From positions 1-47,105 of the forward strand of contig NZ_NGFP01000039.1 of NCBI RefSeq assembly GCF_002149035.1: a stretch of 47,105 bases of DNA, read 5' to 3'. Positions 12,401-44,912 of this stretch are shown here, in pieces. Position numbers and translations under genes: made by a program. Position 1 is the stretch's first letter; the number at the start of each line of letters is the position of its first letter. The notes below the pieces were generated by a model. It was not told where the DNA came from and made no database searches. It saw only the letters and a program-made list of their open reading frames with translations. This DNA is from Streptosporangium minutum. Lineage in GTDB: Bacteria; Actinomycetota; Actinomycetes; Streptosporangiales; Streptosporangiaceae.

Positions 12401-12689
12401 GATCGTGACGACGCGCACCGCGATCGAGGCCCGCGTCCTGGTGACCGAGCGCGTCCGCCCGCTCCGCGTCGAGGGCCGGCTGATCCACCAGGTCGGCCTG
12501 CCGTACCACTGGGCGTGGGGCAGCGGGGGCCTCGTCGCCGGCGACGTCACCAACGACCTGATGCCCCTGGTGCTCGACCCGAACGTCTACATCCAGGAGG
12601 GCAAGGCCGTGACCTGTGATCTGCGAGCCGGCAGGCGCCCCAGGGGGAAGGCCCTGATCGACCTGGTCGAGGAGTACCGCCATGACTGA
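9498..12689 (+). CDS. Formate dehydrogenase catalytic subunit, selenoprotein (TGA at 10056 = Sec)
   Basis: A 1063-residue molybdopterin enzyme oxidising formate to CO2. A [4Fe-4S] motif has C49, C52, C56 and C84 (ICPYCAVGCGQ ... LCPKG). The active-site segment NQARI-U-HSSTVPGLGASFG places selenocysteine at residue 187, encoded by TGA 10056-10058. The frame continues uninterrupted with SNMAECHPVGFQWV and DPRYTRTSALADKHVPIRAG, both typical of FdhG/FdnG-type subunits, and ends at TGA 12687-12689. A conventional gene caller would split this into two pieces at the TGA. No twin-arginine signal is seen (start MAHGGWLSRWPVIRQL), suggesting a cytoplasmic-side complex. Its stop overlaps the start of fdhB (12682), so the two were translationally coupled before the element inserted. 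Confidence 0.93.
10056..10095 (+). promoter_or_regulatory. Bacterial SECIS element (selenocysteine insertion)
   Basis: Immediately after the UGA codon, CCCC (10073-10076) and GGGG (10082-10085) pair around the apical loop GGTCT (10077-10081). The loop starts 21 nt after the U of UGA, the same spacing and loop motif (GGUCU) as the known E. coli fdhF SECIS. It would bind SelB and allow Sec-tRNA decoding. Confidence 0.85.
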
Positions 12690-23833: not shown

Positions 23834-24904
23834 ACGACCTCGTGCATGATTAGCCGTGGCTTCTGGGCTCTCGGCTCGTTGGGCCAGATGTGGTGAGAAC
23901 ACTCGCACGCGCGATCATCTTGAAGAACCGGCGGATTACGGGTCTGTCGGTCGAAGTGATCGCGCAGTTGGTAGCCGAGATCGGACCGTTGTGGCAGGCC
24001 CGGCACCAAGCCGCGCTCGCCGGTCGCCTACGACGACGCAACCTCGGTGCCGGCGCTGAACACAAGCTGATGTTCGTCGATCGACTGCTGGCCACGCTGG
24101 TGCACCTGCGCCACGGCGTCACCCATGACGTGCTGGGCTGCCGGTTCGGCGTCGACCGCTCCACCATCACCCGCTCCACCATCACCCGCGCCATCCACCA
24201 GATCCGCCCCTTACCGGCTGACCGAGGGTGCAGCATCACCACGGGCCAACGCTTACGAACTTCGGCCGATGTGATCGCCTACCTGGGAGACAGCGGTCAA
24301 GAAGCGATCTTGGACGCCACGGAGATCCGCGTCCGCCGCCCAGCCGCCGGCACCCCCGAACGAGATCGCTTCGTCTCCGGCAAAAGCCGGATGAACACGA
24401 TGAAGACGATGGTCCTCACCAACCTCCAAGGGGAGCTGCTGTTTTGCGGCGAAACCCGTCCCGGATCGGTCGCCGACATCACCCAAGCTCGCCGGTCCGG
24501 ACTGGTTGACCTGCTGGCCGACACCCACGGCCTGCAGATCCTCGCTGACGCCGGCTATCAGGGTCTGAACAGCCAGACCGCAGGTCAGATCCTCACCTCA
24601 CCTCGCAAACGGCGCGGCAGGAACCTGGAACACGTCCAATGGCTGATGGCCCATCACGATGCAGCCCGGCACGCGCACTCCTCCCGGCGCATTCCCGTCG
24701 AGCACGGCATCGCCCACCTAAAACTGGAGGGCCTTGGCGCGCCACCACGGCCGCCGCGACCACCTGCCCGAAACCATCCGCGCCGTGGCTGCGCTTCTAT
24801 CCGATCAGCAGACTGCATCCACCCGGCTCCGAGGACAGAAAGCATGATCAAAAAAGTGTCGCCTCAGCGAACCACGCCTTCATCGCAATCATGCACGAGG
24901 TCGT
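23834..24904 (+). mobile_element. IS element with DDE_Tnp_4-type transposase
   Basis: 18-bp terminal inverted repeats: ACGACCTCGTGCATGATT (23834-23851) and AATCATGCACGAGGTCGT (24887-24904), perfect complements. It sits directly against the IS630 fragment, which it appears to have interrupted. Confidence 0.85.
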
Positions 24905-24906
24905 AA
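23890..24906 (+). pseudogene. IS5-type (DDE_Tnp_4) transposase with C-terminal frameshift
   Basis: 338 aa as read. An HTH_Tnp_4-like N-terminus (FVDRLLATLVHLRHGVTHDV, LGCRFGVDRSTITRS) is followed by the DDE domain: ILDATEIRVRRPA (first Asp), ILADAGYQGLNS (second Asp) and RIPVEHGIAHLKLEGLG (Glu). After HLK the frame departs from the family; the expected continuation is in another frame (WRATTAAATTCPKPSAPWLR), so a single-base indel near 24725 altered the C-terminus. A 15-bp duplication (CGCTCCACCATCACC twice, about 24158-24187) adds five residues in the HTH. Probably inactive. Confidence 0.75.
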
Positions 24907-24967
24907 GGACTCCTAACAAAAGTGGGGTATCTGACCTGCTGGAATGCGGGTGTATCAGCTTTCGTTG

Positions 24968-26005
24968 ATGGGCCGCCGGAGGTGTGAGACAGCAGAGAAG
25001 AAGACGACCGTGCGCCGACCGCGGGAGGTTGAGGACGGGCTATGGGAGCGGATCGCGCCGCTGTTGCCTCAAATCAAGCGCAACTTGAAGCGCCCAGGGC
25101 GCCCGCGTTCGGATAACCGCAAGGTGCTGTGCGGCATCTTGTTCGTGCTACACACCGGGAGCCGTTGGGAGTTCCTGCCCCAGAAGCTGGGATTCGGCTC
25201 GGGCATGACGTGCTGGCGCAGGCTGCGGGACTGGAACGACGCCGGAGTCCGGCAGCGGCTGCACGAGGTGCTGCTGGCCGAGCTGCGGGCCGCGGACCTG
25301 CTGGACTTCTCTCGGGCCGCGGCCGACGGCTTGCACGTGCGGGCGATGAAGGGCGGGGCCAAGACCGGTCCGTCGCCGGTCGACCGAGGCCGGACCAGCA
25401 GCAAGCACCACGTCATCGTCGAAGCGCACGGTATCCCGCTGGCTGCCACCGTGACCGGCGGCAACCGCAACGACGTGACCCACCTGATCCCGCTGCTGCA
25501 GGCCGTGCCGCCGATCCGGGGCAAGCGTGGGCGCCCGCGCCAGCGTCCGGAACGGGTGTATGCCGACCGCGGCTACGACCACGACAAGTACCGCCGCCAG
25601 GTCCGCGCGCTGGCAATCACCCCGGTCATCGCCCGCCGCGGCACCGAGCACGGCTCCAGCCTCGGCATCTACCGCTGGGTCGCCGAAGCCGCGTTCGCGT
25701 TGCTGCACCGGTCTCGCCGCCTGCGCATCCGCTGGGAGATCCGCGACGACATCCACGAAGCCTTCCTCACCCTGGGCTGCGCCATCATCTGCCGGCGACG
25801 ACTCCGCGACACACCTTGTCAGGAGCCCTTAGGACTACTCGTAGCCGTCGGGCTCGTGCAGCCTCACAGCCGGGATCTCAGCACGTCGACCTCGCAGCCT
25901 GACGAGGACGGGTCGAAGCCGTGCTCGACAAGCCAGCGGACCGCCAGCATGCTTCGCAGCGACCACCACGCGCGGATCACGTCGAGATCAACGTCGGTGC
26001 CGTAG
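24968..26005 (+). CDS. IS5-family transposase
   Basis: From MGRRRCETAEKKTTVRRP. The DUF4096-like N-terminus is present (VEDGLWERIAPLLPQ, GRPRSDNRKVLCGILFVLHT, SRWEFLPQKLGFGSGMTCWR). The DDE catalytic core reads AADGLHVRAMKGG (Asp), YADRGYDHDKYRRQ (Asp) and a Glu region ending HEAFLTLGCAIICRRRLRDT. Members usually stop just after this (near 25820). Here the frame reads on about 60 codons into the passenger region, overlapping the 3' end of the convergent phosphotransferase. The core looks intact, so it may be active. Confidence 0.88.
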   Translation: MGRRRCETAEKKTTVRRPREVEDGLWERIAPLLPQIKRNLKRPGRPRSDNRKVLCGILFVLHTGSRWEFLPQKLGFGSGMTCWRRLRDWNDAGVRQRLHEVLLAELRAADLLDFSRAAADGLHVRAMKGGAKTGPSPVDRGRTSSKHHVIVEAHGIPLAATVTGGNRNDVTHLIPLLQAVPPIRGKRGRPRQRPERVYADRGYDHDKYRRQVRALAITPVIARRGTEHGSSLGIYRWVAEAAFALLHRSRRLRIRWEIRDDIHEAFLTLGCAIICRRRLRDTPCQEPLGLLVAVGLVQPHSRDLSTSTSQPDEDGSKPCSTSQRTASMLRSDHHARITSRSTSVP

Positions 26006-29038: not shown

Positions 29039-32000
29039 CCCACAATGAGGCCCAGCCGTGAGGCCGGGATAGAAGGCTTGAGGCACCTGTCCCAGTCGGG
29101 GGCACCGGGGTTGCCGCAATGAGGTCCGGCGGCAAAGCCGGAGTGAAACAGCATCTTGACCCGGGCGAACGTCAACGTGCCGCCCCCGTAATGAGGCCCG
29201 GCAGTGAAACCGGGATGAAGCTGCGGCTATGCAGCAGGAGCTGACCAACGTCAACGCCCCACAATGAGGCCCGGCGATGAAACCGGGATGAAGCTGCGGC
29301 TATGCAGCAGGAGCTGACCAACGTCAACGCCCCACAATGAGGCCCGGCGATGAAACCGGGCTGGAGCTGCTGCTGAATCATCGCGGTGGCCTCGTCCCAA
29401 GAGCCGCAATGAGGTCCGGTGCTGGAGCCGGAGTGAAGCGGCTCACGCCAACCCGAGATGATCGTTACCCAGGCGGCGCTGCAATGAGGTCCGGCGCTGG
29501 AGCCGAGGTGAAGCACCCGCTCCGGGGCGGGGATCTCCAGCAGGACAGCGCCGCAATGAGGCTCGGCGTTGGAGCCGAGGTGAAGCTCGATCCACGCGAT
29601 CGAGGCGGAGCCGCCCCAGTCGCCGCAATGAGGCTCGGCGTTGGAGCCGAGGTGAAGCGCAGCAGCTCAGGCTCCTCGCCAGGCCGTTCAACGACGCCGC
29701 AATGAGGCTCGGCAGTGGAGCCGAGGTGAGGCGAGCAGGTGATCGACGAGCAGGGCCACCGTGATGTCGCCGCAATGAGGCTCGGCGGTGGAGCCGAGAT
29801 GGAGCCCGCCCAACTGCGGCGACTTGGCCTCCTCCTCGAAGCCGCAATGAGGCTCGGCAGTGGAGCCGAGATGAAGCTCGCTTCCGAGGTGTACGGCAAG
29901 AGCTGGTGGTGACCGCAATGAGGCTCGGCGGTGGAGCCGAGATGAAGGCAGTGCCGGCCACCCGAACGGCTTGGCTGTAGGTGGGGCCGCAATGAGGCTC
30001 GGCGATGGAGCCGGGATGGAGCCCGAGGATCAGGGCGATCACGACGCCGGCAGCGGTGCCGCAATGAAGCCCGGCGCTGGAGCCGGGATGGAGCGCCGAC
30101 GGTGGCGACGTTTTGCGCCCACTCCAGACCGCCGCAATGAAGCCCGGCGATGGAACCGGAGTGAAGCACGCGGAACTGGCGGGTCTTGTCGTATAGCGGC
30201 AGGCCGCAATGAGGTCCGGCGTTAGAGCCGGAGTAAAGCTCACCGGGTAGGCCAACTGGTGAGCTTCGGTCTCCTGGCCGCAATGAGGTCCGGCGCTGGA
30301 GCCGGAGTGAAGCGACCCAGTGCGCGGATCACCTGGTCGGCCGTTCGGGCGCCGCAATGAAGCCCGGCGATGGAGCCGAGATGGAGCTGGGTCGTCTCGT
30401 CGGATCCCCAACCCTCGGAGTCGCCGCAATGAAGTCCGGCGATGGAGCCGGGATGGAGCTAGGCGCCGGCCAGGGCTCGTCGTTCGGCGTGCGGGCCGCA
30501 ATGAAGCCCGGCGCTGGAACCGGGATGGAGCCAGGCTGCGGCCTCACTTACGGGGAGTGGCTGCGCGCGCCGCAATGAGGTCCGGTGCTGGAGCCAGAGT
30601 GAAGCCACCGCCCACGCCTTCGGCACGTAGTTGTTGGTGTAGCCGCAATGAGGTCCGGCCTTGGAGGCGGAGTGAAGCCACGGCCAGGCCGACACCGGCG
30701 AGCGCCCACCCGACGCCGCAATGAAGCCCGGCGCTGGAGCCGGGATGGAGCGGAGCAGGGGTACGTGGACCGGGTGTGGGAGGAGCAGCCGCAATGAAGC
30801 CCGGCGATGAAACCAGGATGGAGCCCCTGAATGTTCTTCGGCGCCCCCTGAGCCAGGGACACGCCGCAACGAAGCTCGGCGCTGGAGCCGAGATGAAGCA
30901 TCAGCGCCCGCGATGCCCTCGGCTCCCTGCCGAATCAGCCGCAATGAGGCTCGGTGTTGGAGCCGAGGTGAAGCGCACCCAGGGACGCGGTCACCGGCTC
31001 GTCAGCGTCGCCGCAATGAGGCTCAGCGTTGGAGCTGAGGTGAAGCGTGCACGGCGAACGGCAGCAGGCTCCCATTGGACAGGCCGCAATGAGGCTCGGC
31101 GTTGGAGCCGAGGTGAAGCTGATCTCCCACGCGGTCGGGTAGTCGTCCGAGCCGCCGCAATGAGGCTCGGCGTTGGAGCCGAGGTGAAGCGCGGCGGCGG
31201 CGTTGCGACTTCGCATGTACCACGCGCCGCAATGAGGCTCGGCGTTGGAGCCGAGGTGAAGTCGGCCAGGGCCATCATGTCCGGGTCTGGTGCTCCGCCG
31301 CAATGAGGCTCGGCGTTGGAGCCGAGGTGAAGGCTGACGTGCTGGGTGGTCTGGGAAGTGCTTCGGGCCGCAATGAGGCTCGGCGGTGGAGCCGAGATGA
31401 AGCTCGGCGATGAAATCGGCGAAAGCTTGAACGTAGTTGCCGCAATGAGGCTCGGCGGCGGAGCCGCGGTGAAGCGCCCCCACTCGGGAGTGCCGGGGTA
31501 GGGGCGGAACTGACCGCAATGAAGCTCGGCGGTGGAGCCGAGGTGAAGCCGGGATGCGTAGCGCCTGCTCGCCGACGATGAACGCGCCGCAATGAAGCTC
31601 GGCAGTGGAGCCGAGGTGAAGCGCGCTGTTCTGCGGTGCGTGCCTCTATCGGGAGATTGCCGCAATGAAGTCCGGCCTTGGAACCGGAGTGAAGCCCGGG
31701 CTCTCGGCGGTGGGCCCAGTGCATTCCCAGGTAGCCGCAATGAGGTCCGGCCTTGGAGCCGGAGTGAAGCCCAGCGCGACGGCCGGGACGAGGTGCAGCC
31801 ACCGGCCGCAATGAGATCCGGCCTTGGAGCCGGAGTGAAGCGTTCGAGCTGTGGGGAGACACCAGCACCGGCAAGGCGCCGCAATGAGGTCCGGCCTTGG
31901 AGCCGGAGTGAAGCGGTTCGGGTCGGCGGCCTGATCTCGGTGCTGGCCAAGCCGCAATGAAGCTCGGCAGTGGAGCCGAGGTGAAGCTACCCCAACCTAG

Positions 32001-32942
32001 CCGCTTCGGCTAGCCAGGACTGGCCGCAATGAAGCTCGGCAGTGGAGCCGGGATGGAGCGCGCTCGCGCTCGCGGCGACTCGGCGCCCCGGGCCGGGCCG
32101 CAATAAGGTCCGGCCTTGGAGCCGGAGTGAAGCGGTAGGCCGAGCCAGCATCACCGCCGTCGCACCCACCCCGCAATGAGGTCCTGCCTTGGAGCCAAGG
32201 TGAAGCGGTTCGTTCCTGCTCCGACCAGCAGACAATCTGATCGCCGCAATGAAGCTCGGCAGTAGAGCCGAGGTGAAGCTACATCGAGCTGGGAGAGCGC
32301 GCGGCTGACGCGCTGCCGCAATGAAGCTCGGCAGTGGAACCGAGGTGAAGCCCTGGGAGCGCTGGGCCCGCGGAGATGACACCGATTAGCCTTAGCCGCA
32401 ATGAGGTCCGGCCTTGGAGCCGGAGTGAAGCCGGCCGGGCCGGTTGGGTGACCCACGTCTTGCGATCACCGCCGCAATGAGGTCCGTCCTTGAAGCCGGA
32501 GTGAAGCCTGCGGTTCGGCGCCGAGTTCGAGCAGGCCGGGTGGCCGCAATGAGGTCCGGCCTTGGAGCCGGAGTGAAGCACCTCCGGCAGCGCCGTCAGT
32601 GCCGCGTTGTTAGCGCCGCAATGAGGTCCGGCCTTGGAGCCGGAGTGAAGCCTCGGCCGTGTGCAGGCACAGCTCCATGACCTCGCGGCCACAATGAGGT
32701 CCGGCCTTGAAGCCGGAGTGAAGCACCTTCGTCCGGGCCGCAGTGGTCCGGGGACATGCTGCCGCAATGAGGTCCGGCATTGAAGCCGAAGTGAAGCCAG
32801 CGAACATCCCCACGCCGGCCATCACGGCCACTCAGCCGCAATGAGGTCCGGCCTTGGAGCCGGAGTGAAGCGCGCCGGGATGACGGTCACTGCCGCTTGA
32901 GAGAGGCCGCAATGAGGTCCGGCCTTGAAGCCGGAGTGAAGC
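29039..32942 (-). CRISPR. CRISPR array, 54 variable repeats, probably leftward
   Basis: 54 repeat units of 36-37 nt, the first at 29039 and the last starting 32906, with an average period of about 73 and spacers of about 36 nt. The plus-strand unit is (G)CCGCAATGA, a hairpin (6-bp arms, 6-nt loop such as GTTGGA or CTTGGA), then GTGAAGC or ATGGAGC. Repeats are not uniform: arm pairs are TCCGGC/GCCGGA, CTCGGC/GCCGAG, CCCGGC/GCCGGG and once CTCAGC/GCTGAG (unit at 31010). The 29-kb end is the most decayed (unit 1 at 29039, unit 3 at 29185); the 32.9-kb end abuts an AT-rich stretch beside the cas operon. This and the minus-strand repeat end ATTGCGGC (like the 3' handle of Cas6-cut repeats) suggest leftward transcription from a leader at 32943-33151. 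The spacer at 29221-29257 is repeated exactly at 29294-29330. Confidence 0.93.
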
Positions 32943-33151
32943 GCTCCGCAACCTGCAATTACTACTTAGAGCGATAAGTAAAACACGCTTGAGCCGACTG
33001 ATTTGTCCACCGAATGACCTTGTTGAGGTTCGGAACCCCCCTGGGAAAGCATGTGCACTTGAGGTTCCGAACCTGCGCATCAGAAACCTACGGGAGACAG
33101 CCATTGTGATGTTGTCAAGGAGCGTTTGAACCAAAAGAGCCGGACCAAGGA
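32943..33151 (-). promoter_or_regulatory. Probable CRISPR leader with inverted repeat
   Basis: 209 bp, AT-richer than its surroundings, between the end of the cas operon and the array. It contains the inverted repeat AGGTTCGGAACC (33026-33037) / GGTTCCGAACCT (33063-33074), perfect 12-bp arms with a 25-nt loop. This may terminate the cas operon or act as an operator. The stretch 32950-33000 (TTACTACTTAGAGCGATAAG) is the likeliest leader core next to the newest repeat. Confidence 0.6.
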
Positions 33152-34129
33152 TCAGTCTGGCTGATCAGCGATGCGGATCGGGACAAGGACACCGGCACTC
33201 TTGCCGCCTTCGATGGACTGCCGTTCTGCCCCGTAGACGTCGAAGACACCGAGCGGGAGAAGACGCTTGCGCTCGACGGTGACGGGCCGCCCCTGCCGCG
33301 AGGGGGTGGGCCGCAGGAGTGGGTGGTCGAGCAACGTTTGAACGGCATGGGCATCGAGGGCGGGTCTCCACAGAGGCCAGATCATGACCGCGCGCCGGTT
33401 GTGGCGGTGCCACAGCGTCGCGGAAGCGTTCTGGCCGTCTCCGGTGACACGGAGCAGGGGCAGCGCCTGGGTGGCCAGCCAGGTGGCACCGGGAACCCCG
33501 GCGGGAATGGACTTTCCCGATGGGTGGTCAGCGGCGCTACGCAGGACTCGGTGGTCGAGGTACTCGCCGGTGAAGCCGTCCACCCGGCGCCACCCGGTCA
33601 AGGCTTCGGCCAGCCGGGATGGTTCTGCTCGCACCACCTCCAGGGACTTACGGAAGAAGGTCCAGACAGTCTGCTTGCCGGCTGGGGCCATGTACGGCGT
33701 GAGCGCGGCACGGCCGGCGCGATCCACGGCCAGATCTGTCACCAGGAAGGACAGCCACTCGACGGCCGCGCTTCCCAGCGGCTCCACCCGGGCATAGAGA
33801 TGCTCGCCGTACGCCGGACGGAGCACACGCATGGGGTCGCTCTCGTCGGCCTTGTCCGCCCCATGCGCTCGGCTCGGGGGAGCCGGGCGGAGCGGGAACT
33901 TCGGTCCCAGCGCGGGAAGTGCCGCGTCATCGTCGGTGGCCTCGACGATGTCTCGCAGCGCGCCTGCGATCTCGTCGGTGTCGTGGAAGTCGCCGTGAAT
34001 CTGAGCGCAGCCGGTGGTGTCGGAGAAGCTGAGCCGGACCTGTTCTCCCAGGACCCGTAGCAGGCCCAGGGTGGCGAGGAATCCCAGCGGGTCACGGCCG
34101 TCCAAGGCCGGCAGGTCGACGGTGTTCAC
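33152..34129 (-). CDS. Type I-G Cas8-like / Cas3-extension protein
   Basis: 325 aa, last gene of the cas operon; its start overlaps the cas3 stop by 4 nt. The N-terminus VDLPALDGRDPLGFLATLGL then LRVLGEQ resembles the start of Csx17/Csb3-type small Cas8-like proteins of subtype I-G (old I-U), which have a conserved G-x-DPLGFLAALG-L motif. It is much shorter than full Csx17 large subunits, so it may be the reduced Csb3-like form or a Cas3-extension protein. If it is not a Cas8, the locus lacks a recognisable large subunit. A role in Cascade or target recognition is inferred from operon membership. Confidence 0.7.
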   Translation of the reverse strand: MNTVDLPALDGRDPLGFLATLGLLRVLGEQVRLSFSDTTGCAQIHGDFHDTDEIAGALRDIVEATDDDAALPALGPKFPLRPAPPSRAHGADKADESDPMRVLRPAYGEHLYARVEPLGSAAVEWLSFLVTDLAVDRAGRAALTPYMAPAGKQTVWTFFRKSLEVVRAEPSRLAEALTGWRRVDGFTGEYLDHRVLRSAADHPSGKSIPAGVPGATWLATQALPLLRVTGDGQNASATLWHRHNRRAVMIWPLWRPALDAHAVQTLLDHPLLRPTPSRQGRPVTVERKRLLPLGVFDVYGAERQSIEGGKSAGVLVPIRIADQPD

Positions 34130-36996
34130 GGTGTGCCCTCCTCTTCACGCTCGGAGCACCAGATGTCGGCCAGTCGCACGACGGACTCCAGCAGGGCAAG
34201 CCCCCAGCGGCCGTATCGCTGGTTGAGTTCGGCGAACCTGCGGGGCGCGTCCCAGTCGAGGGTTTCGCCGGTGTCGAGGGTGACCGACAACTCGTCGATG
34301 TGGACGGTTTCTGGAGCGGGATCGGTGATGGGCGGCAGCAGGGGGCGGCTGCGGCCGTGGTGGGCCGCGACCAGGTGGATCACGAGGTCGGGATCGACAT
34401 CGTGGGATCCGGCCTCCAGGTGGAGGTGGGCGATGCGGGCCGACAGAGCCTCGTGCCGCATCCCGTCGGGATACCCCGAAATGAGCTTGGCCCGCCGGTA
34501 GGCGGCTCGGTCGGCGGGATCGAGCCCGGACTTGGCCAGCAGTTCCCGGCGGGTTCCGCTGCGCAGGACGCGAGGGGGACGGCCATGCAGCATCGCCTGA
34601 AAGCGGGCATCCCGCTTGCCTTCGTCATGCCAGAGCGCCGCGACCCGCACACTGTTGACCAGCACCGGCCCCAAGCCGAGATTGAGAGCGAACTCCTCGG
34701 CCCGGTCGGCGACGGCGCGCTCATGGACATGCAGGGTCATCTTCTTGCCGGAACCGGCTACGGACGAGCCCCAAGCATCAGCGTCCCCGACCCATGCCCC
34801 GCCCTTGGTGGTCAGCAGCGCCACATAAGGCGCCTTGTCCGTGAAGGTGACCGTGCAGCGGGTCAGAGCACGTAGGTTACGGGCCAGCGGTAACGGATTC
34901 TCCAGGTCCTCCGCAGGCAGCAGGTCGATGATGCGCTGGAGCTCTTTTCGGTAGACGCCGGCGGCGGGTGGGGTGTCGTCGGCCAGGTCGGCGCGCGTCT
35001 GGTCGATCAGGTCCCGCAGCGCTTGCCCGATAGCGGGAGACTCACGGCGAGCGGCGTCAACGATTGCCGGGCCGAGCCGTACAGCGGGGCGGCCACCGCG
35101 ATAGGCGAGATCGGCCACATCAAGCACAGGGGAAGTGGACGTGGGATTCCAGCCGTACTCGTCGCAACCGCCCTGCTCACAGGGCACCACAATCAGATCA
35201 CCTGGCCGGATCTCGGCAGGGCTGATCAGCGTGACATCATCCTTGCCCCGGTAGCACACCACCTGGTTCAGCCGCCAAAACCGGCTCGGCGGCGGATCCT
35301 CATCCTGCGGCGCGCCTTCCACATCGCCCAGCGGGTCGCTGCTCTCCTCCTCGGCCAGCCACTGCCGCACCGCGTGCAAGGAGACCTCGACGGCCTCTTC
35401 GGTGGACGGCGGCATCTCCATGACCGTCGACGGCCACGCCTGCGGCTCCCCTTCCACCAGCCCCGATCGCCAGACCACCGCGACGTCGGGACTCCCCCGA
35501 TCGATCCCATGCAGGTAGGGGGCGACCGGCGGGTCGGGGTACGGGATAGGCGATGTCCGCACCCAGGCGTCCAGCACCTGGTCGAACAGCACGGGCATAT
35601 AGGGCAGCGGCTCGCGCATGCCCTGCCGCACAGTCGAATCCAGGGGCTCCAAGAGCCTGCGGAGGGCCAGCGGCGAGACGTCGATTCCATCGCCCAACTG
35701 GTTCGACTCAAGCGGTGCGGTCAGCGTGCTGAGCCACTGCCAGGTAGCCTGACGGGCCGGGCCGTACACCGGATCGTCTGGCCCGACGCTCGCGTCATGG
35801 ACCACCACCGCATCAGCTCGGGTGAGCTTGCCGAGCCGGTTGAGCCGCCCCAGCCGCTGGATCAGCGCCGCCAGCGACGCCGACTCGGTCACCAGATGAT
35901 CAGCGTCGATGTTGGCGCCGACCTCCACCGTCTGGGTCGCACATACGATCAACGGCTTCCCGGCGGCGCGGGTGCGGCCCACCTTCATCCGGGGGTAGCA
36001 GCGCCTGAGCAGGTATTCCCGGTCGATCGGCCTGCTGCGGCCGATCAGCAGCTCCACATCAGCGTCGCCGCCCTGCAGGAGGGTGTGTACGGCACGCGCC
36101 CGGCCGACCGTGTTGCAGATGACGGCGACGACGTGCCCCGACTGGGCGTCACCAACCAGAGCCTTCGCCCAGGCGGCCATCGTCATGGCCATCACGGCGC
36201 CGGCGTTCTTCTTGGTCACCTCCGGCTGGAGGAGATGGAGGCGGCGGGGAGCGGCCAGCCGCTGGCGGGCGATCTCGTGTTGGTCGTCGGTGTCGGCTCG
36301 GTGCACCTGCTGCCCCTCGGCCGCAGGCGTGGTCGCCGACATGGTGATAAGCGTCGGCTGTGGCCCCACCACGATCTGCGGGTCGTCCGCGATGAAGGCA
36401 GCTCGGAGCGTTTTGACCAGCGGCTCAGCCAGGTGCGCCTCGTCGATCACGATCAGGCTGTCGGTGCCGGTCAGTGCGGCGTCGATGGGACGCAGATGCT
36501 GGCCGACCTGGTAGCCGCGAAACAGCAGGCGGCTGCCGATCTGATCGACGGTGCCGACCACCACCGCGTACCGGTCGGGACGCTCCAGCCACCGCCACGA
36601 CCACGTGACGCCACCGCGCATCCGGGTGACCTGCAGCGCCGGCCCGTCATCGTTCTTCTGACGCAGTACCTGCGCGACATGGGCGCTGATCGGCCCCTTC
36701 GGCTCGGCGAGCGCCCCGGCCAACGCAATGGCGTGCTCGTACGCCTCGTCGACGACCAGGCGGCGATCCACCACGAAGAACAGCCGACGGCGCGCGCACT
36801 CAACGCCTGCCGCGGCCACGAAGACCGCGATATCGATCATCGTGGTCTTGCCCAGACCGGTCGGGACGTCCAGGACATCCGGCCAACGCCCCTCGGTCAG
36901 CACGCGCTCAACCAGGTGCTGCTGCCAGGGGAACGGCTTTCGGCCGTGAGTTTCTTGTAGGAATTCGGAGAAGTCCGCTGCGGTCAACTGGCTCAT
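34126..36996 (-). CDS. cas3: Cas3 helicase-nuclease, type I-G (HD domain C-terminal)
   Basis: 956 aa. The helicase comes first: Walker A DVPTGLGKTTM with K50, DEAH box at 185-188 (LIVIDEAHLAEP), motif III SATTPAAEG and motif VI IQRLGRLNRLGK (about residue 385). The HD nuclease is at the C-terminus: HDEGKRDARFQAMLHG (about 790) and VAAHHGRSRPLLPP (about 879). C-terminal placement of HD is characteristic of subtype I-G/I-U, unlike most type I systems. It unwinds and degrades DNA bound by Cascade. It overlaps csb2 upstream and the Cas8-like gene downstream by 4 nt each (ATGA). Confidence 0.93.
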   Translation of the reverse strand: MSQLTAADFSEFLQETHGRKPFPWQQHLVERVLTEGRWPDVLDVPTGLGKTTMIDIAVFVAAAGVECARRRLFFVVDRRLVVDEAYEHAIALAGALAEPKGPISAHVAQVLRQKNDDGPALQVTRMRGGVTWSWRWLERPDRYAVVVGTVDQIGSRLLFRGYQVGQHLRPIDAALTGTDSLIVIDEAHLAEPLVKTLRAAFIADDPQIVVGPQPTLITMSATTPAAEGQQVHRADTDDQHEIARQRLAAPRRLHLLQPEVTKKNAGAVMAMTMAAWAKALVGDAQSGHVVAVICNTVGRARAVHTLLQGGDADVELLIGRSRPIDREYLLRRCYPRMKVGRTRAAGKPLIVCATQTVEVGANIDADHLVTESASLAALIQRLGRLNRLGKLTRADAVVVHDASVGPDDPVYGPARQATWQWLSTLTAPLESNQLGDGIDVSPLALRRLLEPLDSTVRQGMREPLPYMPVLFDQVLDAWVRTSPIPYPDPPVAPYLHGIDRGSPDVAVVWRSGLVEGEPQAWPSTVMEMPPSTEEAVEVSLHAVRQWLAEEESSDPLGDVEGAPQDEDPPPSRFWRLNQVVCYRGKDDVTLISPAEIRPGDLIVVPCEQGGCDEYGWNPTSTSPVLDVADLAYRGGRPAVRLGPAIVDAARRESPAIGQALRDLIDQTRADLADDTPPAAGVYRKELQRIIDLLPAEDLENPLPLARNLRALTRCTVTFTDKAPYVALLTTKGGAWVGDADAWGSSVAGSGKKMTLHVHERAVADRAEEFALNLGLGPVLVNSVRVAALWHDEGKRDARFQAMLHGRPPRVLRSGTRRELLAKSGLDPADRAAYRRAKLISGYPDGMRHEALSARIAHLHLEAGSHDVDPDLVIHLVAAHHGRSRPLLPPITDPAPETVHIDELSVTLDTGETLDWDAPRRFAELNQRYGRWGLALLESVVRLADIWCSEREEEGTP

Positions 36997-38378
36997 CGGC
37001 TGCTCCTGTCCGGTACGAACAATCCCAGCCCGAGATAGCGCATCGACCCCGCCAGCACGGGGCCAACAACCGGCTGAGCGAACCTCACTCGCACATGCAC
37101 CATCGGACGGACCGGCCGGCCTTCGGGGATCGTGCCTTTGCGCGGCCGGTGCACGGCCCCCCGGGTCAATGCCGCCGGGGAGATCTCAACTTCATCCGGT
37201 TCGGGGTATCCGGCGGTGGCCAGGCTCCGAAAGACCAGATCACGAGCGTCCTGCTTCCGGGAGGGGTAGCGGTCGAGCATCAGCGGCGCGGCGGTCACCC
37301 AGCCGCGACTCCCTTGGGGAGCCGCCATCCACCACTCGGGGGTCAGCCGTAGCGGAGTGGTCAGATACGGGTCGTGCTCCACGGGGATCGCCTGGTCCCG
37401 GCGGATCGTCAACCGGCGGATCGGGTCATCGACGGTCCGTTCCAAAAGCCGGTCAAGGCTGCCGGGATCCATCTGGCGAGGCACGGCGAGCGCCACACCG
37501 AGCACATTGCCGTCCGCGTTGTCGTGCCCGGTGTTGAGCAGAGCGAGATAGCCCAGGTGCGGCCGATCCTCGGCCCCGTGGCCGGACACCTCCGCCGGGA
37601 CGTCGTCGCCGATCCGCTGGATGACCGCCTGGCGCAGCCTCGCGGTCATCGTCAGGAGCGAGTCTCCGGCCGGCTGTACCACGCGGGGCGCGAAGCGGAA
37701 AACGAGCAGGTCGGAGAAGGGTCCTTCCACCACCGCGGGCTCCGCCGTACGGCCGGCGACGGTGTAGGGGACACTGCGGGCCACGGCCCATGCGCGCTGA
37801 CCGTCGGCATAGGAATGCTGGAGCTGGTCGGTGTAGCCCGGGTAGGGGATCCGCAGCTCGGCGAGCGCATGCTCTCCGATACGGGAGGGCACGTAGCGCG
37901 CCCACTCCGGCCCCGGCTCGTCGATCTCGGCTTCCACGCTGAGGGACGCCGTCGAGGTCGCGCGACCCACGTACGGCACGCGCCGGGCGAGCCTGCGCAG
38001 GCACACCAGGGTGTCGCCGTCGGGGGTGGCGTGCGCCCACACGATCGTGAACGCCGGAACCTGGGGAATGGCCGAGACCCGAGATCGTGACCCGTTAGTC
38101 CGTCCGGGCCAGGACTGGCTGCCGCCCTTCTGCTCGATCGTGTTGGTCACCACATAGCCTTCGACGGCCTCCTGGTCGGCTGCTTCGCAGGCCCACACCT
38201 CGGGGACGCCCGCCGCCTCCAGCCAGCGCAGCGTCGCCCAATCGTTGTCATCCATGGCGGACGCCACCAGGGCGCAGAACAGCCGCGCGGGATGAGGGGG
38301 CCATTCCGCCTGCGACGGCCGCGTCCCTGCCGCCTCGTAGCGGCCCGCCCGCAGGCGGACCGTGATTGCCAACGGCAT
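36993..38378 (-). CDS. csb2: Csb2 (Cas5-Cas6 fusion of type I-G)
   Basis: 461 aa, GSU0054 family. The RAMP-type N-terminus contains EWPPHPARLFCALVASAMDD (about residues 25-44), a family hallmark, then PYVGRATSTASLSVEAE. The C-terminal half (about 250-440), with RPHLGYLALLNTGHDNADGN and a glycine-rich end (LAGSMRYLGLGLFVPD), corresponds to the Cas6-like part thought to cut the repeat hairpin. It lies 6 nt after csb1. It probably processes the crRNAs of the adjacent array, so its recognition must tolerate the variable repeat stems. Confidence 0.9.
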   Translation of the reverse strand: MPLAITVRLRAGRYEAAGTRPSQAEWPPHPARLFCALVASAMDDNDWATLRWLEAAGVPEVWACEAADQEAVEGYVVTNTIEQKGGSQSWPGRTNGSRSRVSAIPQVPAFTIVWAHATPDGDTLVCLRRLARRVPYVGRATSTASLSVEAEIDEPGPEWARYVPSRIGEHALAELRIPYPGYTDQLQHSYADGQRAWAVARSVPYTVAGRTAEPAVVEGPFSDLLVFRFAPRVVQPAGDSLLTMTARLRQAVIQRIGDDVPAEVSGHGAEDRPHLGYLALLNTGHDNADGNVLGVALAVPRQMDPGSLDRLLERTVDDPIRRLTIRRDQAIPVEHDPYLTTPLRLTPEWWMAAPQGSRGWVTAAPLMLDRYPSRKQDARDLVFRSLATAGYPEPDEVEISPAALTRGAVHRPRKGTIPEGRPVRPMVHVRVRFAQPVVGPVLAGSMRYLGLGLFVPDRSSR

Positions 38379-38384
38379 TAGGGG

Positions 38385-39536
38385 TTACTCCTCCGCTGCG
38401 GCCTGTGTCGTGGAGACATCGATCGCCTTGGCCAGGGACGGCATCGGCTCCAGCCGAATGGCATCCGTGGCCATCACCACCCCGGCCGCTGCTGCGCGGT
38501 CCCGCAGCTCGTGGAAGACCTCGATGGCCTCGCTCGCGGACAGGGCGAACTCCTCCCGGACGCCCCCGTCCTGTTCGAACGCCAAGATCTCGCCCGATCG
38601 AACGAGGTCGCAGCCTGAGCGCAGCCAGACCGACGGGCGGCCGAAGGTCAGGCGATCCCCGGCCAGTGCCAGAGCGACCAGCGTGGCCCTCGCCAGCTGG
38701 GCGGCTTCCGCTGAGGCATCACCGAACCGCAGCCGCTCGATCGCCGCCAGGGAGATCCAGCCCGACCGGCGAGCCTCGATGATCGAAACCCCGCCGTGGG
38801 CTTCTCCAGGCGCGATGTTGCCGTGCCCGATTTCGCTCAGTCGCTGGCCCTGTTTCTTCTCCTTCTTCTCCCCGACCTGCACGTACTGCCAGTCAGCTTC
38901 CGCCTTGGCCTTGTCGTCGATCGCTCCGGTGAGGTTGAGCGGGTCTACCCGCGTTGCCTTGCGCTGCCCCTCCTGCGGGTCGATGCCCACGATCGAGGAG
39001 GAGTAGATCCGGGCGAACTTCGGCCAGCGGCCTTTCCGGTGCGAGTCCCAGGCACCGAACAGCAGCGAGCCCGGGTCGCGCTCATACAGAGGGCAAACGT
39101 CCAATGCGCTGACCTGCCGCAGGTGCTGTCCGACCTCGCTGCGGTCGAAGCGCACCCCGTCCACCATGCTGTCGCGCAAGTAGGCATCCGCGTAGCGGTG
39201 TGGGAACTCCAACGAGGTGAGACGGAGCGTTCCACGGCTCGTCTCAGCCATCAGCTCGAACAGCGGAAGCTGGATGCGGCCGGCGTCCCGGGCCGCGAGT
39301 AACGCCTCCTCGACCCGGTTGGCCTGCGAGGGCACCTGATCCAGGACCACAACCTTCTTCGCCTCACCGTCCACCCACCGTGTCTCCATCAGGTAGGGCC
39401 CGTTGTTCCCCGGAAACGAGGGAGGCATGACCTTGTCCCCGGCCGCCGGGCGATAGACCGTTTCCACGCCGACCCCGGCGTCCGGCCGGTCCTCGCTAAC
39501 GGCCTCTACCAGCCGCTTAACGATGTGTTCGACCAC
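38385..39536 (-). CDS. csb1: Csb1 (Cas7 backbone subunit of type I-G)
   Basis: 383 aa from GTG 39536, chosen because GGAAGG lies 8 nt upstream and similarity starts there. The frame is open to a GTG at 39698, but that start has no RBS. The Csb1/GSU0053 motifs are present: VMPPSFPGNNGPYLM, VVVLDQVPSQANRVEEALLA and LLFGAWDSHRKGRWPKFARI then YSSSIVGID. It forms the crRNA-binding filament of Cascade. First gene of the leftward cas operon csb1-csb2-cas3-cas8-like. Confidence 0.9.
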   Translation of the reverse strand: MVEHIVKRLVEAVSEDRPDAGVGVETVYRPAAGDKVMPPSFPGNNGPYLMETRWVDGEAKKVVVLDQVPSQANRVEEALLAARDAGRIQLPLFELMAETSRGTLRLTSLEFPHRYADAYLRDSMVDGVRFDRSEVGQHLRQVSALDVCPLYERDPGSLLFGAWDSHRKGRWPKFARIYSSSIVGIDPQEGQRKATRVDPLNLTGAIDDKAKAEADWQYVQVGEKKEKKQGQRLSEIGHGNIAPGEAHGGVSIIEARRSGWISLAAIERLRFGDASAEAAQLARATLVALALAGDRLTFGRPSVWLRSGCDLVRSGEILAFEQDGGVREEFALSASEAIEVFHELRDRAAAAGVVMATDAIRLEPMPSLAKAIDVSTTQAAAEE

Positions 39537-40295
39537 GTACTCGCCCTTCCGCTTGTTTTGGAAGAAGGCTGAGTGCCGAAGCGCCCCACCTTCTGATGCG
39601 TTTTCGCGGTCACCCTTGTCCCTGACGAGGGTGAACAAAGGCTGACCGTACGGCAGGCCGCCGACATTTCGCGACGTACCGCTAAAGAAACGACACACCC
39701 AGTGAGGAATAGTTCAACCCGGGTGAAGGATTGCTCCTACGCAATGGCCCATCTGGGGCCACTGGTCTCCTGGCCCCGTCGGCATCGCCATGGTCTTCCC
39801 GAAGAACCGCCGCTGTGGCTACACGCCTCCGTCATGGCCGCTTTTACCAAACACCTGCAGCACCGCCTGTACCAGGCCGCCGAGCGGGAGTGCTCTGGTG
39901 AGACCTGCGGGCAGGCCGCCGAGGGCCCAATTAAGGGTGGACAGTGACTGGCATCGCCTGGTTGATCACGTTCCTCGACACCCGATTGGACGAGGGCGAG
40001 CGCACCACACGCCTGGCCGCCATATCGCTGACGTGCAGCCGAGGCAGGAGGCCCCTTATCGGCTCATACGAAAAGATACTTACTATGTTGCCGAATCCGT
40101 CAACCATGCAAATGCGGAAAACGACCTCCCCACAGTTGGGGCGGAACTACTGCAAACGCGGACCGAGATCCTAACTCGGGTCAGCCTTGCACAACGGCCA
40201 CCTCGGATCACTGCACAGGGCTCTGACCTAGGCAAATCCGCGTAGAGATGGTTTGCCAGCCAGCCCCCCGCCATAGGGGTGAGTAGTAAGTATTT
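39537..40295. other. Region upstream of the cas operon, no supported gene
   Basis: About 760 bp including a possible 54-codon extension of csb1. On the minus strand TTGACG (complement of 40105-40110) followed by a TAAGTAT-like box is a weak promoter candidate. No cas1, cas2 or cas4 remnant is visible. Other open frames here look accidental. Confidence 0.35.
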
Positions 40296-41888: not shown

Positions 41889-43947
41889 TGGCAGTCAGCT
41901 CACGGCGTTCTACGGCGGCGTCGATCTCCGCCCGCTTGCAGCCCTTCAAGACGCGCCCGTCGGCCTTGACGTCCTCGCTCGGGACTCCCAGACCACGCAC
42001 CAGCGCGGAGACCGACTCGGCCGACAGGTCCCCATACGCCTCCGGCCGGTGGTCGGCGAGCATCTCGGCCAGCGTCTGCCACTGGACGCCGGCCCGGCCG
42101 GTCGGCCACACCCTGACCACGTCGATCAGGATGTCCAGCCGGGGCTGGTCCTGCTCGCTAGTCGGCACGTGTCCGCCACGGAGCTCTACGGCGCGGGCCA
42201 GGATCTTCTTGGTCTCGGACTCGGACGGGTAGTAGGACCGGATGGCCGAGGGGTCCTTCAGGCCGGTGACCATGCCCCAACCGGCGTCGATTTCCGGCCG
42301 GAACGCGGTACCGGTGATCCCGCGCTTGTAGGAGCCGGTGCCGAGGATCATGTCGTTGGCGACCTGCTCCTGGACCGCGAGGCACCAGCGCATGTTGACG
42401 CACCGGGTGATGTTCGGGGGCAGCGAGTCCTTGTCGGGGATCTGGGTGGCCAGGATGACGATCAGGCCCAGCGCCCGGCCACGCTTGATCAGCCGCTCGG
42501 CGCCGACGGCGGCGTCCTTGTCGGCCAGGAACAGCTCGTGCGCCTCGTCGATCAGGATGACGACCGGGTGAAGGCCGACGCCAGCGGTGGCCAGTTCCGG
42601 CGTCACCTTGCCCTCGGGCGCACGTCCCTCGGCCCGGTACTTCTTGATCCGCTTGCCGCGCCGCTCGGCCTCGGCCAGGCCCCACGCAATGATCCCGGCG
42701 CTTCCGGCAATCGCCTCGTCGTCGACACCGCAGTAGTACTCCGACGCGATCGGCTCGAAGTCCGCGAAATCGGCCGTGCCCTTGTGCTCGGCGATCTTGA
42801 ATTCCACTGTCGGGTCCAGGGACGCGACCAGGGCCAGGGCGCGGGCGGCGTACGACTTGCCCGACCCCGGCATGCCTCCTATCAGCCAGTTCCGCGAGAA
42901 CAGGGGCGAGGACACCGGGCGCTGGCGCTGGTCGGCGCCGAAGGCAACCGGCTCGAACACCGACGTACGCGCGCCGTCGGCGAGGACGGTCCACTTCGGC
43001 GGGCGCATCTTGCTCGCGGGCTGGTAGCCGACCCAGAGGTCAAGCTGGCCAGCGTGGTCCGGGCCGGCACTCGGCCACACCTGGTCAACGGGGAGCCGCA
43101 GGGCGCTGGAGAGCTTGCCGCGCTTCTCGACCACCGACACGGCTTCCACACCGAGCGGCAGGTTCACCCGCGCGAGCTGGCCGGGGCCGTCGCGGTGGAT
43201 CTCGGTCGGGAACGTGATCGCCTTCGGGTCCTTCAGGCCGGTCACGCCCAGGACACACAGCGCCTCCCGAACCCGCTCGGCCGTCAGCCTGTGGAACCGG
43301 GTCACGGTCACGGCAACGTTGGTGAGCGGCTTGTCTGCAGGGCGGCCGGCGCGGGCCAGGCCGACCGTCAGGCCGCCGTAGAGCATGGCCTGAGCCCACC
43401 AGGGGAGCAGGGTCCACGACGCGGCCCCGGCGCCACTCAGACCCGCCAGGCCAGACGCCGTAACGATCATGCGACGGCGGACCGTGCGGTCTCGCTGCTT
43501 GACCAGCCGGAGGTAGGCGTCCGAGTCCTTGGCGACGACCATCGACCGCCGCAGCGGCCGAGACTCGGCGTCGGTCATCCACCGCCAGGTACGGCCGACC
43601 AGGCGCCCGCCGCCGACCGGCGTCCAGCGGATGACCCGCAGGCCGTAGAGCGGGGAGTGCCAGGCGTGGTACCCGATCCGGTAGGCCACGTTGCCAGCCC
43701 ACCAGCGAGCCGTAGCGGCCAGATCATGACGCGACCGAGCCCACGCCGGGAGAATCGGCTGACGCTGGACATCCCCTCGGCCGGTGATCGTTGCGTAGAC
43801 GGCCTCAGAATCGCCGTCAGCGCCCTCGGGAAGATCAACGGGCCTCCCGACCAGGGTCTGCCCTGTCGCGCTCTCCGCGTCGATCATGGGGCTCTCGTCG
43901 ACATCCGGGACATGCGGGGCCGGGCGCTCGATCTCGGTTGCGGTCAT
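41884..43947 (-). CDS. FtsK/SpoIIIE-type DNA translocase (TraB-like conjugation protein)
   Basis: 687 aa. N-terminal soluble part, then hydrophobic segments around residues 160-200 (VTASGLAGLSGAG, WWAQAMLYGGLTVGLA). The motor domain has Walker A GGMPGSGKSYAA (about 355-366) and Walker B VVILIDEAHEL (about 459-469), followed by a C-terminal winged helix (LSAESVSALVRGLGVPSEDV). This is the plan of actinomycete conjugative translocases that move double-stranded DNA between mycelia. It is coupled to the upstream gene (ATGA overlap at 43947) and ends in the octamer cluster it may bind. Confidence 0.9.
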   Translation of the reverse strand: MTATEIERPAPHVPDVDESPMIDAESATGQTLVGRPVDLPEGADGDSEAVYATITGRGDVQRQPILPAWARSRHDLAATARWWAGNVAYRIGYHAWHSPLYGLRVIRWTPVGGGRLVGRTWRWMTDAESRPLRRSMVVAKDSDAYLRLVKQRDRTVRRRMIVTASGLAGLSGAGAASWTLLPWWAQAMLYGGLTVGLARAGRPADKPLTNVAVTVTRFHRLTAERVREALCVLGVTGLKDPKAITFPTEIHRDGPGQLARVNLPLGVEAVSVVEKRGKLSSALRLPVDQVWPSAGPDHAGQLDLWVGYQPASKMRPPKWTVLADGARTSVFEPVAFGADQRQRPVSSPLFSRNWLIGGMPGSGKSYAARALALVASLDPTVEFKIAEHKGTADFADFEPIASEYYCGVDDEAIAGSAGIIAWGLAEAERRGKRIKKYRAEGRAPEGKVTPELATAGVGLHPVVILIDEAHELFLADKDAAVGAERLIKRGRALGLIVILATQIPDKDSLPPNITRCVNMRWCLAVQEQVANDMILGTGSYKRGITGTAFRPEIDAGWGMVTGLKDPSAIRSYYPSESETKKILARAVELRGGHVPTSEQDQPRLDILIDVVRVWPTGRAGVQWQTLAEMLADHRPEAYGDLSAESVSALVRGLGVPSEDVKADGRVLKGCKRAEIDAAVERRELTAR

Positions 43948-44912
43948 CAGGCACCTCCGGCCGTGCAGAACGGGTGATGAGCGTCAAGGCCGCAGGAGGG
44001 ACAGGAGACTCCCTCGGCGACGTCTGCGGTGAGCTTGCGGACCACGTCGTCGAACCGGCGCAGGCGTTCGTAGGCCCCGAAATTCGGGTCGCCCAGGAAC
44101 TTGGCGGTGTAGACGATCACGGCCTCGGGGCCGTTGTCCGCGTGAAGGGCTTCCTCGATCTTGGTCAGCAGCCGGGAGCGCAGCCAGGCCGGAGCCGTCC
44201 GGTAGTGGTCCGGCAGCTTGCCGAGCACTTCCCCAGCCAGCCGAGGAAGGTCTTCCAGGTTCGCCGGAGGCGTCGTGACGGCGTCGCGCGCGTTACGGTC
44301 CGCAACGGCGCCTACGGCGAGATCAACAGCCGGGTTTTCGTCCTTGATTTTCTTCTTGGTCTTCTGGGTGTTTGTTCTTCTTATAGGGGTGGAAAATCCG
44401 TCGTTGGTGCTGACCTGCGACGATGCGTCGTTTCCGCTGGTCACGGCCATTGACGGGTTTCCCGTCGTAGGTGCGGCCTGGGCGTTGACCTCGTTTCCGC
44501 TGGTCGTGACCTGTGACGGGTTTTCCGGCGGAGGTGCGGTGGTGGCGGTACCACCAGTGACGGAAAATCCGTCGTTGGTGCTGACCTGCTGATTTCCGGC
44601 CGTCCAGGGGTCGCACAGGATGTAGTCGACGTGGCCGAGCTTCCCGCTGCTGGCGCGCTGACGCTCCCGGACGAGGTAGCCGTGCGTCTCCAGCTCCCTG
44701 ATGGCCCCGCGTACGGCGTCACGGCCGTCCGGCGCAGCGGCGATGAGGGTGTTCTCCGAGATCCGGAAACCCACCTTGTGGGAAGCCAGCCAGGCGAGGA
44801 CACCGCGAGCCTTCCAGGTCAGCCGCTTGTCACGGACCCACCTGTTACTGACCGTCGTGAAGTGATCGGTTGGGAGCTCGGCCCGGCGGAATCCCGGGGT
44901 ACGGTTGGGCAA
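43947..44912 (-). CDS. Winged-helix protein, putative replication initiator with repeat-containing linker
   Basis: 321 aa. The N-terminal wHTH domain reads NRWVRDKRLTWKARGVLAWL, GFRISENTLIAAAPDGRDAV and RGAIRELETHGYLVRERQRA (about residues 22-86). A long Thr/Asn-rich linker (about 105-175) contains repeats: VSTNDGFS twice and NPSxxxTSGN twice. The C-terminal domain (LPRLAGEVLGKLPDHYRTAP) ends in a zinc-like CPSCGLDAHHPFC. Proteins of this layout precede traB in AICEs and are taken as replication initiators; a regulatory role is the alternative. Confidence 0.65.
   Translation of the reverse strand: MPNRTPGFRRAELPTDHFTTVSNRWVRDKRLTWKARGVLAWLASHKVGFRISENTLIAAAPDGRDAVRGAIRELETHGYLVRERQRASSGKLGHVDYILCDPWTAGNQQVSTNDGFSVTGGTATTAPPPENPSQVTTSGNEVNAQAAPTTGNPSMAVTSGNDASSQVSTNDGFSTPIRRTNTQKTKKKIKDENPAVDLAVGAVADRNARDAVTTPPANLEDLPRLAGEVLGKLPDHYRTAPAWLRSRLLTKIEEALHADNGPEAVIVYTAKFLGDPNFGAYERLRRFDDVVRKLTADVAEGVSCPSCGLDAHHPFCTAGGA
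44391..44589. repeat. DNA repeats inside the putative initiator gene
   Basis: A 28-bp exact repeat (GGAAAATCCGTCGTTGGTGC and following) at 44391-44418 and 44562-44589. Between them lies a 63-bp tandem duplication (CGTTTCCGCTGGTC at 44429 and 44492; TGACGGGTTT at 44451 and 44514). All distances are multiples of 3, so the frame is kept. Candidate embedded origin or expansion of a disordered linker. Confidence 0.75.

Follow-up and report, generated by a model that had tools for sequence, protein, structure and literature searches.

The 47,105-nucleotide (nt) stretch of the Streptosporangium minutum genome analysed here (contig NZ_NGFP01000039.1, positions 1 to 47,105; hereafter the window) carries an array of clustered regularly interspaced short palindromic repeats (CRISPR) beside the effector genes of a type I-G system. 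The repeats fall into three main classes that differ in both arms of their hairpin stem. We read this as an old effector-only array that no longer receives new units, has aged, and has become mosaic by recombination, rather than one in which each hairpin has been repaired unit by unit. We give this reading a probability of roughly 0.6.

Stem classes and hybrid repeats

The array and the features within and next to it are as follows.

29040..32942, minus strand: CRISPR array with 54 repeats, each 36 nt long; we read the minus strand as the CRISPR RNA (crRNA) strand, which puts the leader end on the right.
32396..32942, minus strand: leader-proximal block of eight repeats, all TC/GA by their outer bases bar one altered arm at 32762.
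30864..31622, minus strand: CT/AG run of 11 units, with one altered arm at 31440 and including the unit at 31011.
29222..29331, minus strand: tandem duplication of a spacer (29222-29258 equals 29295-29331, with a repeat between them).
32943..33151, minus strand: presumed leader, the interval between the array and cas8g, assigned by position; part of it is kept in the relic of genome G306 described below.

The 53 spacers are 34-44 nt long, and all are unique bar the duplicated one. The minus-strand reading of the crRNA rests on the handle-like CATTGCGG found on that strand. Read in this direction, each unit starts with a 7-nt head, followed by a stem of 6 bp around a loop of 6 nt and by CCTCATTGCGG. 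The 36-nt unit with its 6-bp hairpin is of the type I-G kind. Judging by the type I-G enzyme already described (PMC9638904), the Csb2 protein probably still cleaves the RNA 4 nt beyond the end of the stem, at CCTC^ATTGCGG and one further base, which would leave an 8-nt handle.

We assigned classes from the two outermost bases of each arm on the plus strand, with the arms read separately. By this definition, the 54 repeats comprise 18 TC/GA, 19 CT/AG, 8 CC/GG, 7 hybrids with swapped arms and 2 others. The 54-repeat array with stem classes described by the original prediction is real. Its hand count of perfect 6-bp Watson-Crick stems was recovered (32/54), and its "about ten" further stems that pair with the help of G-U number 11, with pairing on the minus (crRNA) strand. 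Stems are broken in the remaining 11 repeats. The single CTCAGC/GCTGAG unit also exists, at 31011-31046. The flanks are not fixed in every unit as had been claimed, as CCGCAATGA is exact in 46/54 units. Repeat identity is 0.830 (53 repeats, the terminal one left out), and the leader half, with 0.96 nearest-neighbour changes, is less diverged than the distal half, with 1.73.

The stem columns of the array covary beyond shuffled alignments on three of five measures, and beyond controls in slid register by score. The alignment has 44 distinct rows, and the shuffles leave the relatedness between repeats in place. Paired cells make up 95.5% (89.2 shuffled), 30 cells are changed on both sides (13.2 shuffled), and the covariation score is 0.368 (0.244 shuffled; slid controls ≤0.129); none of 500 shuffles reached any of these three values. 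The other two measures do not rise above the shuffles: 3 pairs have changes on both sides (2.3 shuffled), and there are 8 further pair types (7.5 shuffled). Column pairs 8-25 and 9-24 carry nearly all of the covariation, and a third pair is altered on both sides in one unit. Covariation within one array need not mean selection on each unit.

The order of the classes points to recombination. They interleave along the array in 27 runs, each hybrid being counted as its own run. A path of copying from adjacent unit to adjacent unit requires 209 changes, the minimum tree 94 and a shuffled path 335. Thus neighbours are related, but the classes return. A hybrid is in crossover register when each arm has the class of the neighbour on its own side. 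This holds for 4/7 hybrids, and none is in the opposite register (random-placement mean 0.35, P=0.0001).

29479..29514, minus strand: hybrid of a TC arm and an AG arm, between TC/GA and CT/AG neighbours; in register.
29987..30022, minus strand: hybrid of a CT arm and a GG arm, between CT/AG and CC/GG neighbours; in register.
30132..30167, minus strand: hybrid of a CC arm and a GA arm, between CC/GG and TC/GA neighbours; in register.
32171..32206, minus strand: hybrid of a TC arm and an AG arm, between TC/GA and CT/AG neighbours; in register.
30352..30459, minus strand: hybrids at 30352 and 30424; out of register.
32024..32059, minus strand: hybrid of a CT arm and a GG arm; out of register.

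Class switches occur seven times between arms and 12 times between units, in a count that skips junctions touching either of the two units with an unclassed arm. This fits crossovers spread evenly over the repeat (15/36, p=0.82). Because the arms switch at the neutral rate, hybrids are not visibly selected against.

Repeats of these classes are found in close relatives. A search of 341 genomes of the family with the class consensus sequences (≤3 mismatches) placed them only in S. minutum itself and in two other genomes of the genus, G306 and G307. G307 has two CC repeats, in an array that is mostly CC-type. The matches in G306 are one CC-like and one CC/CT-hybrid repeat, and belong to a relic (locus L090, 10179-11366) that comprises six or seven units; these are heterogeneous, and their stems are CC, CC/CT-hybrid and CT-like. 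The relic retains 154/325 cas8g residues at 84% identity, and window positions 33023-33654 align with it at 77.6%. We saw no spacer common to the relic and the window. Of the two readings that the original prediction offered, recombination among several arrays fits best, given the interleaved classes, the excess of changes on the adjacent path, the in-register hybrids and the CC-type and mixed repeats of the two relatives.

We propose the following course of events. With no Cas1 beside the array, there would be no refreshing by copying of the leader repeat. Old units would stay and their repeats would accumulate mutations, as the comparison with relatives suggests. The three classes would be repeat lineages, each able to form the hairpin, and homologous recombination through the 36-nt repeats may have interleaved them between related arrays, with the leader/cas8g side perhaps a further recombination site. 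Crossovers inside a repeat would give hybrids with one arm from each class; the register is observed, and the donors are putative. Pairing would then persist mostly because classes are inherited whole, with selection on single units weak at most.

Cas1 and repeat heterogeneity across the family

The csb1 gene (PF09617) was found in 41/341 genomes of the family, at 45 places. We examined 40 regions, representing 41 of the 44 csb1 places outside the window, with three places left out. An array was found in 38/40 regions and two or more arrays in 28/40. Cas1 adjoins only three of the 40 loci (L059, L067 and L082), and the effectors of L067 and L082 are distant from those of the window. The arrays of these three loci are uniform (repeat identity 1.000, 1.000, 0.996 and 0.981). 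Identity is below 0.97 in 43 of the 54 I-G arrays with at least eight usable repeats; out-of-register repeats were dropped (e.g., 8/56 in L056.0, 5/27 in L076.0 and 4/30 in L057.0), and leftover misregister would inflate heterogeneity in the least alike arrays. The distal half is the more diverged in 36 of these 43 heterogeneous arrays and the leader half in seven (p=9e-6).

Cas1 matches were found in 29 of the 38 genomes searched. Taking E ≤1e-60 as a strong match, a cut-off chosen after the list had been viewed, median repeat identity is 0.990 in the 15 genomes with strong Cas1 and 0.860 in the 21 others, the window's included (p=9e-5; p=0.005 by genus means). The nine genomes without any Cas1 match have identities of 0.82-0.91. 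The same contrast exists within S. minutum, whose draft genome is 9.58 Mb in 548 contigs. Both of its Cas1 matches in the protein family search fall in one frame on contig C1. This frame is a Cas1e, encoded among Cas3e, Cas8e, Cas11e, Cas7e, Cas5e and Cas6e (type I-E). The two arrays that flank it have repeat identities of 0.974 (31 repeats) and 0.989 (24 repeats), vs. 0.830 for the I-G array. In the literature searched, which covered few subscription journals, we found no report of repeat heterogeneity going with Cas1 loss, or of stem classes within one array.

It is tempting to extend this account to the I-G arrays without Cas1 in these actinomycetes as a group, and we do so only speculatively. 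Such arrays might evolve chiefly by repeat-mediated exchange and ageing, with memory units shuffled between related mobile elements, stem classes serving as shared alleles, and Csb2 tolerating many stems. Immunity would then be retained and remixed without a spacer-adding enzyme. If repeat heterogeneity is a clock of the time without spacer addition, sequence alone could reveal the age of an array and whether it has lost adaptation; hybrid repeats would mark the sites where memory blocks were exchanged, and recombination between arrays would become countable.

The survey also provided some observations on array layout. Several multi-array loci have arrays that flank the cas operon and read outward (e.g., L044-L049), and others have arrays reading one way (e.g., L051, L054, L065 and L066). 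In L046 (6569-8485) a two-spacer block is duplicated inside one array with spacers 100% identical, an internal clock for repeat change. The I-E locus of S. minutum (L013; genome G000, contig C1, 42000-61900) has arrays on either side of its cas genes. In one of them, a 10-repeat block with a single altered base adjoins a 16-repeat block, which is the ordinary ladder pattern.

Weighing the explanations

Besides the late choice of the Cas1 cut-off, several results weigh against an aged, recombined array. The association with Cas1 has p=0.23 when stratified within genera, and one of the four informative genera is reversed. Arrays L053, L068 and L071 are uniform without an adjoining Cas1. Of the remote Cas1 loci in the 16 genomes with a strong match, the 12 examined have other repeats or no clear array. 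Cas1 proteins at remote loci are ~22-40% identical to the three query Cas1, and help in trans to I-G arrays is possible. Within the window, uniformity near the leader suggests that new spacers were still being added in the fairly recent past. Three of the seven hybrids (30352, 30424 and 32024) are out of register, and a model in which each unit copies the best of all older units requires 117 changes, which does not improve on shuffled order (113.5). No uniform TC/GA or CT/AG donor array was found in the 341 genomes, which leaves the donors putative. Finally, the true pairs of the window covary at 0.390 vs. 0.138 for non-partner stem columns, and linkage alone does not fully predict this excess.

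The strongest rival is the other reading of the original prediction, in which purifying selection acts on each crRNA hairpin after duplication and stems drift by compensatory changes unit by unit. The excess of paired cells, the covariation score and the partner columns of the window all speak for it. Paired cells reach p≤0.05 in 6/24 arrays, the window's among them. The best single case is unit 31011-31046, where two private changes at one pair restore pairing. Private compensatory pairs number 6 vs. 2.6 expected over 54 arrays (p=0.03), but counts at slid registers range from 0 to 6, with 6 reached at one slide. The private count of pairs changed on both sides is 8 at the true register, inside the slid range of 2 to 11.

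Tests that count events, which cover the window's array and those of its relatives, give this rival less. Partner co-changes on minimum-tree steps of 2-4 changes number 16 vs. 12.5 expected (347 steps, Poisson p=0.20), and the result is flat at every step limit (2 vs. 1.7, 6 vs. 6.6, 16 vs. 12.5 and 28 vs. 24.5). By mutual information, partner columns are ahead of non-partner columns in 9/22 arrays (p=0.50). The private C>T and G>A rates in stems are 11.0 and 10.1 per 1000, and 10.4 and 9.1 at unpaired sites; the two kinds of site receive private mutations about equally often.

One-sided stem changes yielded 264 G-U vs. 152 A-C pairs (p=4e-8). We rejected this excess as proof of crRNA selection. 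Since unpaired positions share the bias of C>T over G>A, mutation can explain it (scaled share 0.609 at unpaired sites; 283 to 175 in stems). The stem and unpaired biases compare at Fisher p=0.07 when all deviations are counted and at p=0.24 when only private ones are. For the window by itself the comparison gives p=0.048, with C>T relatively rarer in the stem, whereas selection for G-U would make it commoner.

Judged by events, prolonged selection on each hairpin is weakly supported, and the unit at 31011 is a clean case of private compensation. Selection on the hairpin probably acted when the classes arose. Within the window array, per-unit selection is not needed for most of the pattern, and we consider it unlikely as the main cause.

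Ordinary copying at the leader end, with the leader repeat mutating over time and each version passed to the next block, is less probable again. It would account for the likeness of neighbouring repeats (0.895 vs. 0.830 for random pairs, p=0.002) and the local runs of identical repeats, and stretches of repeat variants in E. coli have been interpreted in this way (PMC2886076). It does not account for classes that alternate while nearly all spacers are unique, for an adjacent path more than twice as long as the minimum tree, or for four hybrids at junctions in register. This copying is disfavoured for the middle of the array and may hold for the leader block.

Template switching at the palindrome, which has been described for RNA hairpins (PMC8794818), would copy one arm onto the other and give paired changes without selection. 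It could yield the 31011 unit. We regard it as very improbable for the array as a whole because it yields neither interleaved classes whose loop and tail letters go with the stem nor the junction hybrids. That a few uniform arrays were simply joined end to end, or that the 548-contig assembly produced an artefact, is hardly credible even though the classes cluster in runs, because there are 27 runs rather than three blocks, many independently assembled relatives show similar heterogeneity, and heterogeneous repeats should assemble more easily, not less.

The type I-G locus and its surroundings

The four effector genes lie right of the array on the same strand.

33152..34129, minus strand: cas8g, large subunit (PADLOC Cas8g, E 1.7e-26).
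34126..36996, minus strand: cas3g, helicase and HD domain (PADLOC Cas3g, E 2.7e-264; Pfam Cas3 helicase C-terminal and Cas3_HD).
36993..38378, minus strand: csb2 (cas5-6g), presumed crRNA-processing subunit (PADLOC Cas56g, E 8e-137; PF09609).
38385..39698, minus strand: csb1 (cas7g), backbone (PF09617, E 1.2e-40).

The presence of csb1/cas7g, csb2/cas5-6g, cas8g and cas3g together makes this, by gene content, a type I-G locus in an effector-only form and not a complete I-G system. The Cas4-Cas1 fusion and Cas2 of type I-G were not found at the locus. Cas1 is absent from the window by a family search of the genome and by tblastn with the Cas1 of three relatives. There is no Cas4 (PF01930) match anywhere in the draft genome. 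There is also no Cas2 match to PF09827, but the I-E locus is likewise unmatched, so this family misses some Cas2. An Rfam scan of the window returned nothing at gathering scores.

The gene set resembles the type I-G (formerly I-U) system of Thioalkalivibrio sulfidiphilus, which has Csb1, Csb2 (Cas5-6), Cas8g and Cas3, and a 36-nt repeat with a hairpin followed by an 8-nt handle (PMC9638904), a handle that is putative here. It differs from that system in that no Cas4-1 was found beside the locus, in its stem (6 bp vs. 7 bp) and in its heterogeneous repeats. Reduced or unusual I-U variants of actinomycetes (e.g., Salinispora) also have less than the full gene set (PMC12231136), and the available part of that report does not mention repeat heterogeneity. 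The locus is likewise similar to CRISPR loci on mobile elements that have effectors and an array without an adjoining cas1, and mobile-element neighbours; repeat heterogeneity is undescribed in the accessible portion of that plasmid survey (PMC9071438).

Repeats within one array have been called generally identical, and compensatory changes that preserve the stem were described in a comparison between arrays (Kunin 2007; PMC1896005). The paired changes here are of the same kind, but the classes stand side by side in one array. Polymorphism of terminal repeats (PMC8047081) resembles the present case in its variation at the far end and in recombination between repeats; in the window the variation extends along most of the array and is organised into stem classes. 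Avoidance of array collapse has already been discussed for terminal repeats in that report.

Possible targets of the spacers were few. A query with the whole array returned 8 phage and 12 plasmid records at E ≤1, with two spacers below E 0.01. For spacer 32725-32761, the hits are five small plasmids of Streptomyces (90-94% identity across 35-42 nt, with E from 6e-4 to 3e-2), and the protospacer adjoins a DUF2637 gene in both plasmids inspected. For spacer 31476-31513, the hit is phage SF3 of Streptomyces (94% identity across 32 nt, with E 8e-3). The protospacer-adjacent motif of type I-G is TTN (PMC9638904). Both matches are weak; the plasmid protospacer is without TTN, and the phage one has it only if the spacer is one base shorter.

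The window also encodes a serine recombinase, an FtsK-like protein and two transposases, and because of these genes a mobile-element setting for the locus is likely. The serine recombinase gene (12752-14362) is immediately downstream of a molybdopterin oxidoreductase gene (10167-12689), and this junction is perhaps a mobile-element integration site. The two transposase genes, left of the array (23890-26005), differ from and adjoin each other. A helix-turn-helix gene (43947-44912) contains two direct-repeat pairs at 44391-44589. One pair is of 28 nt, identical and 171 apart, and the other is of 49 nt, 84% identical and 63 apart.

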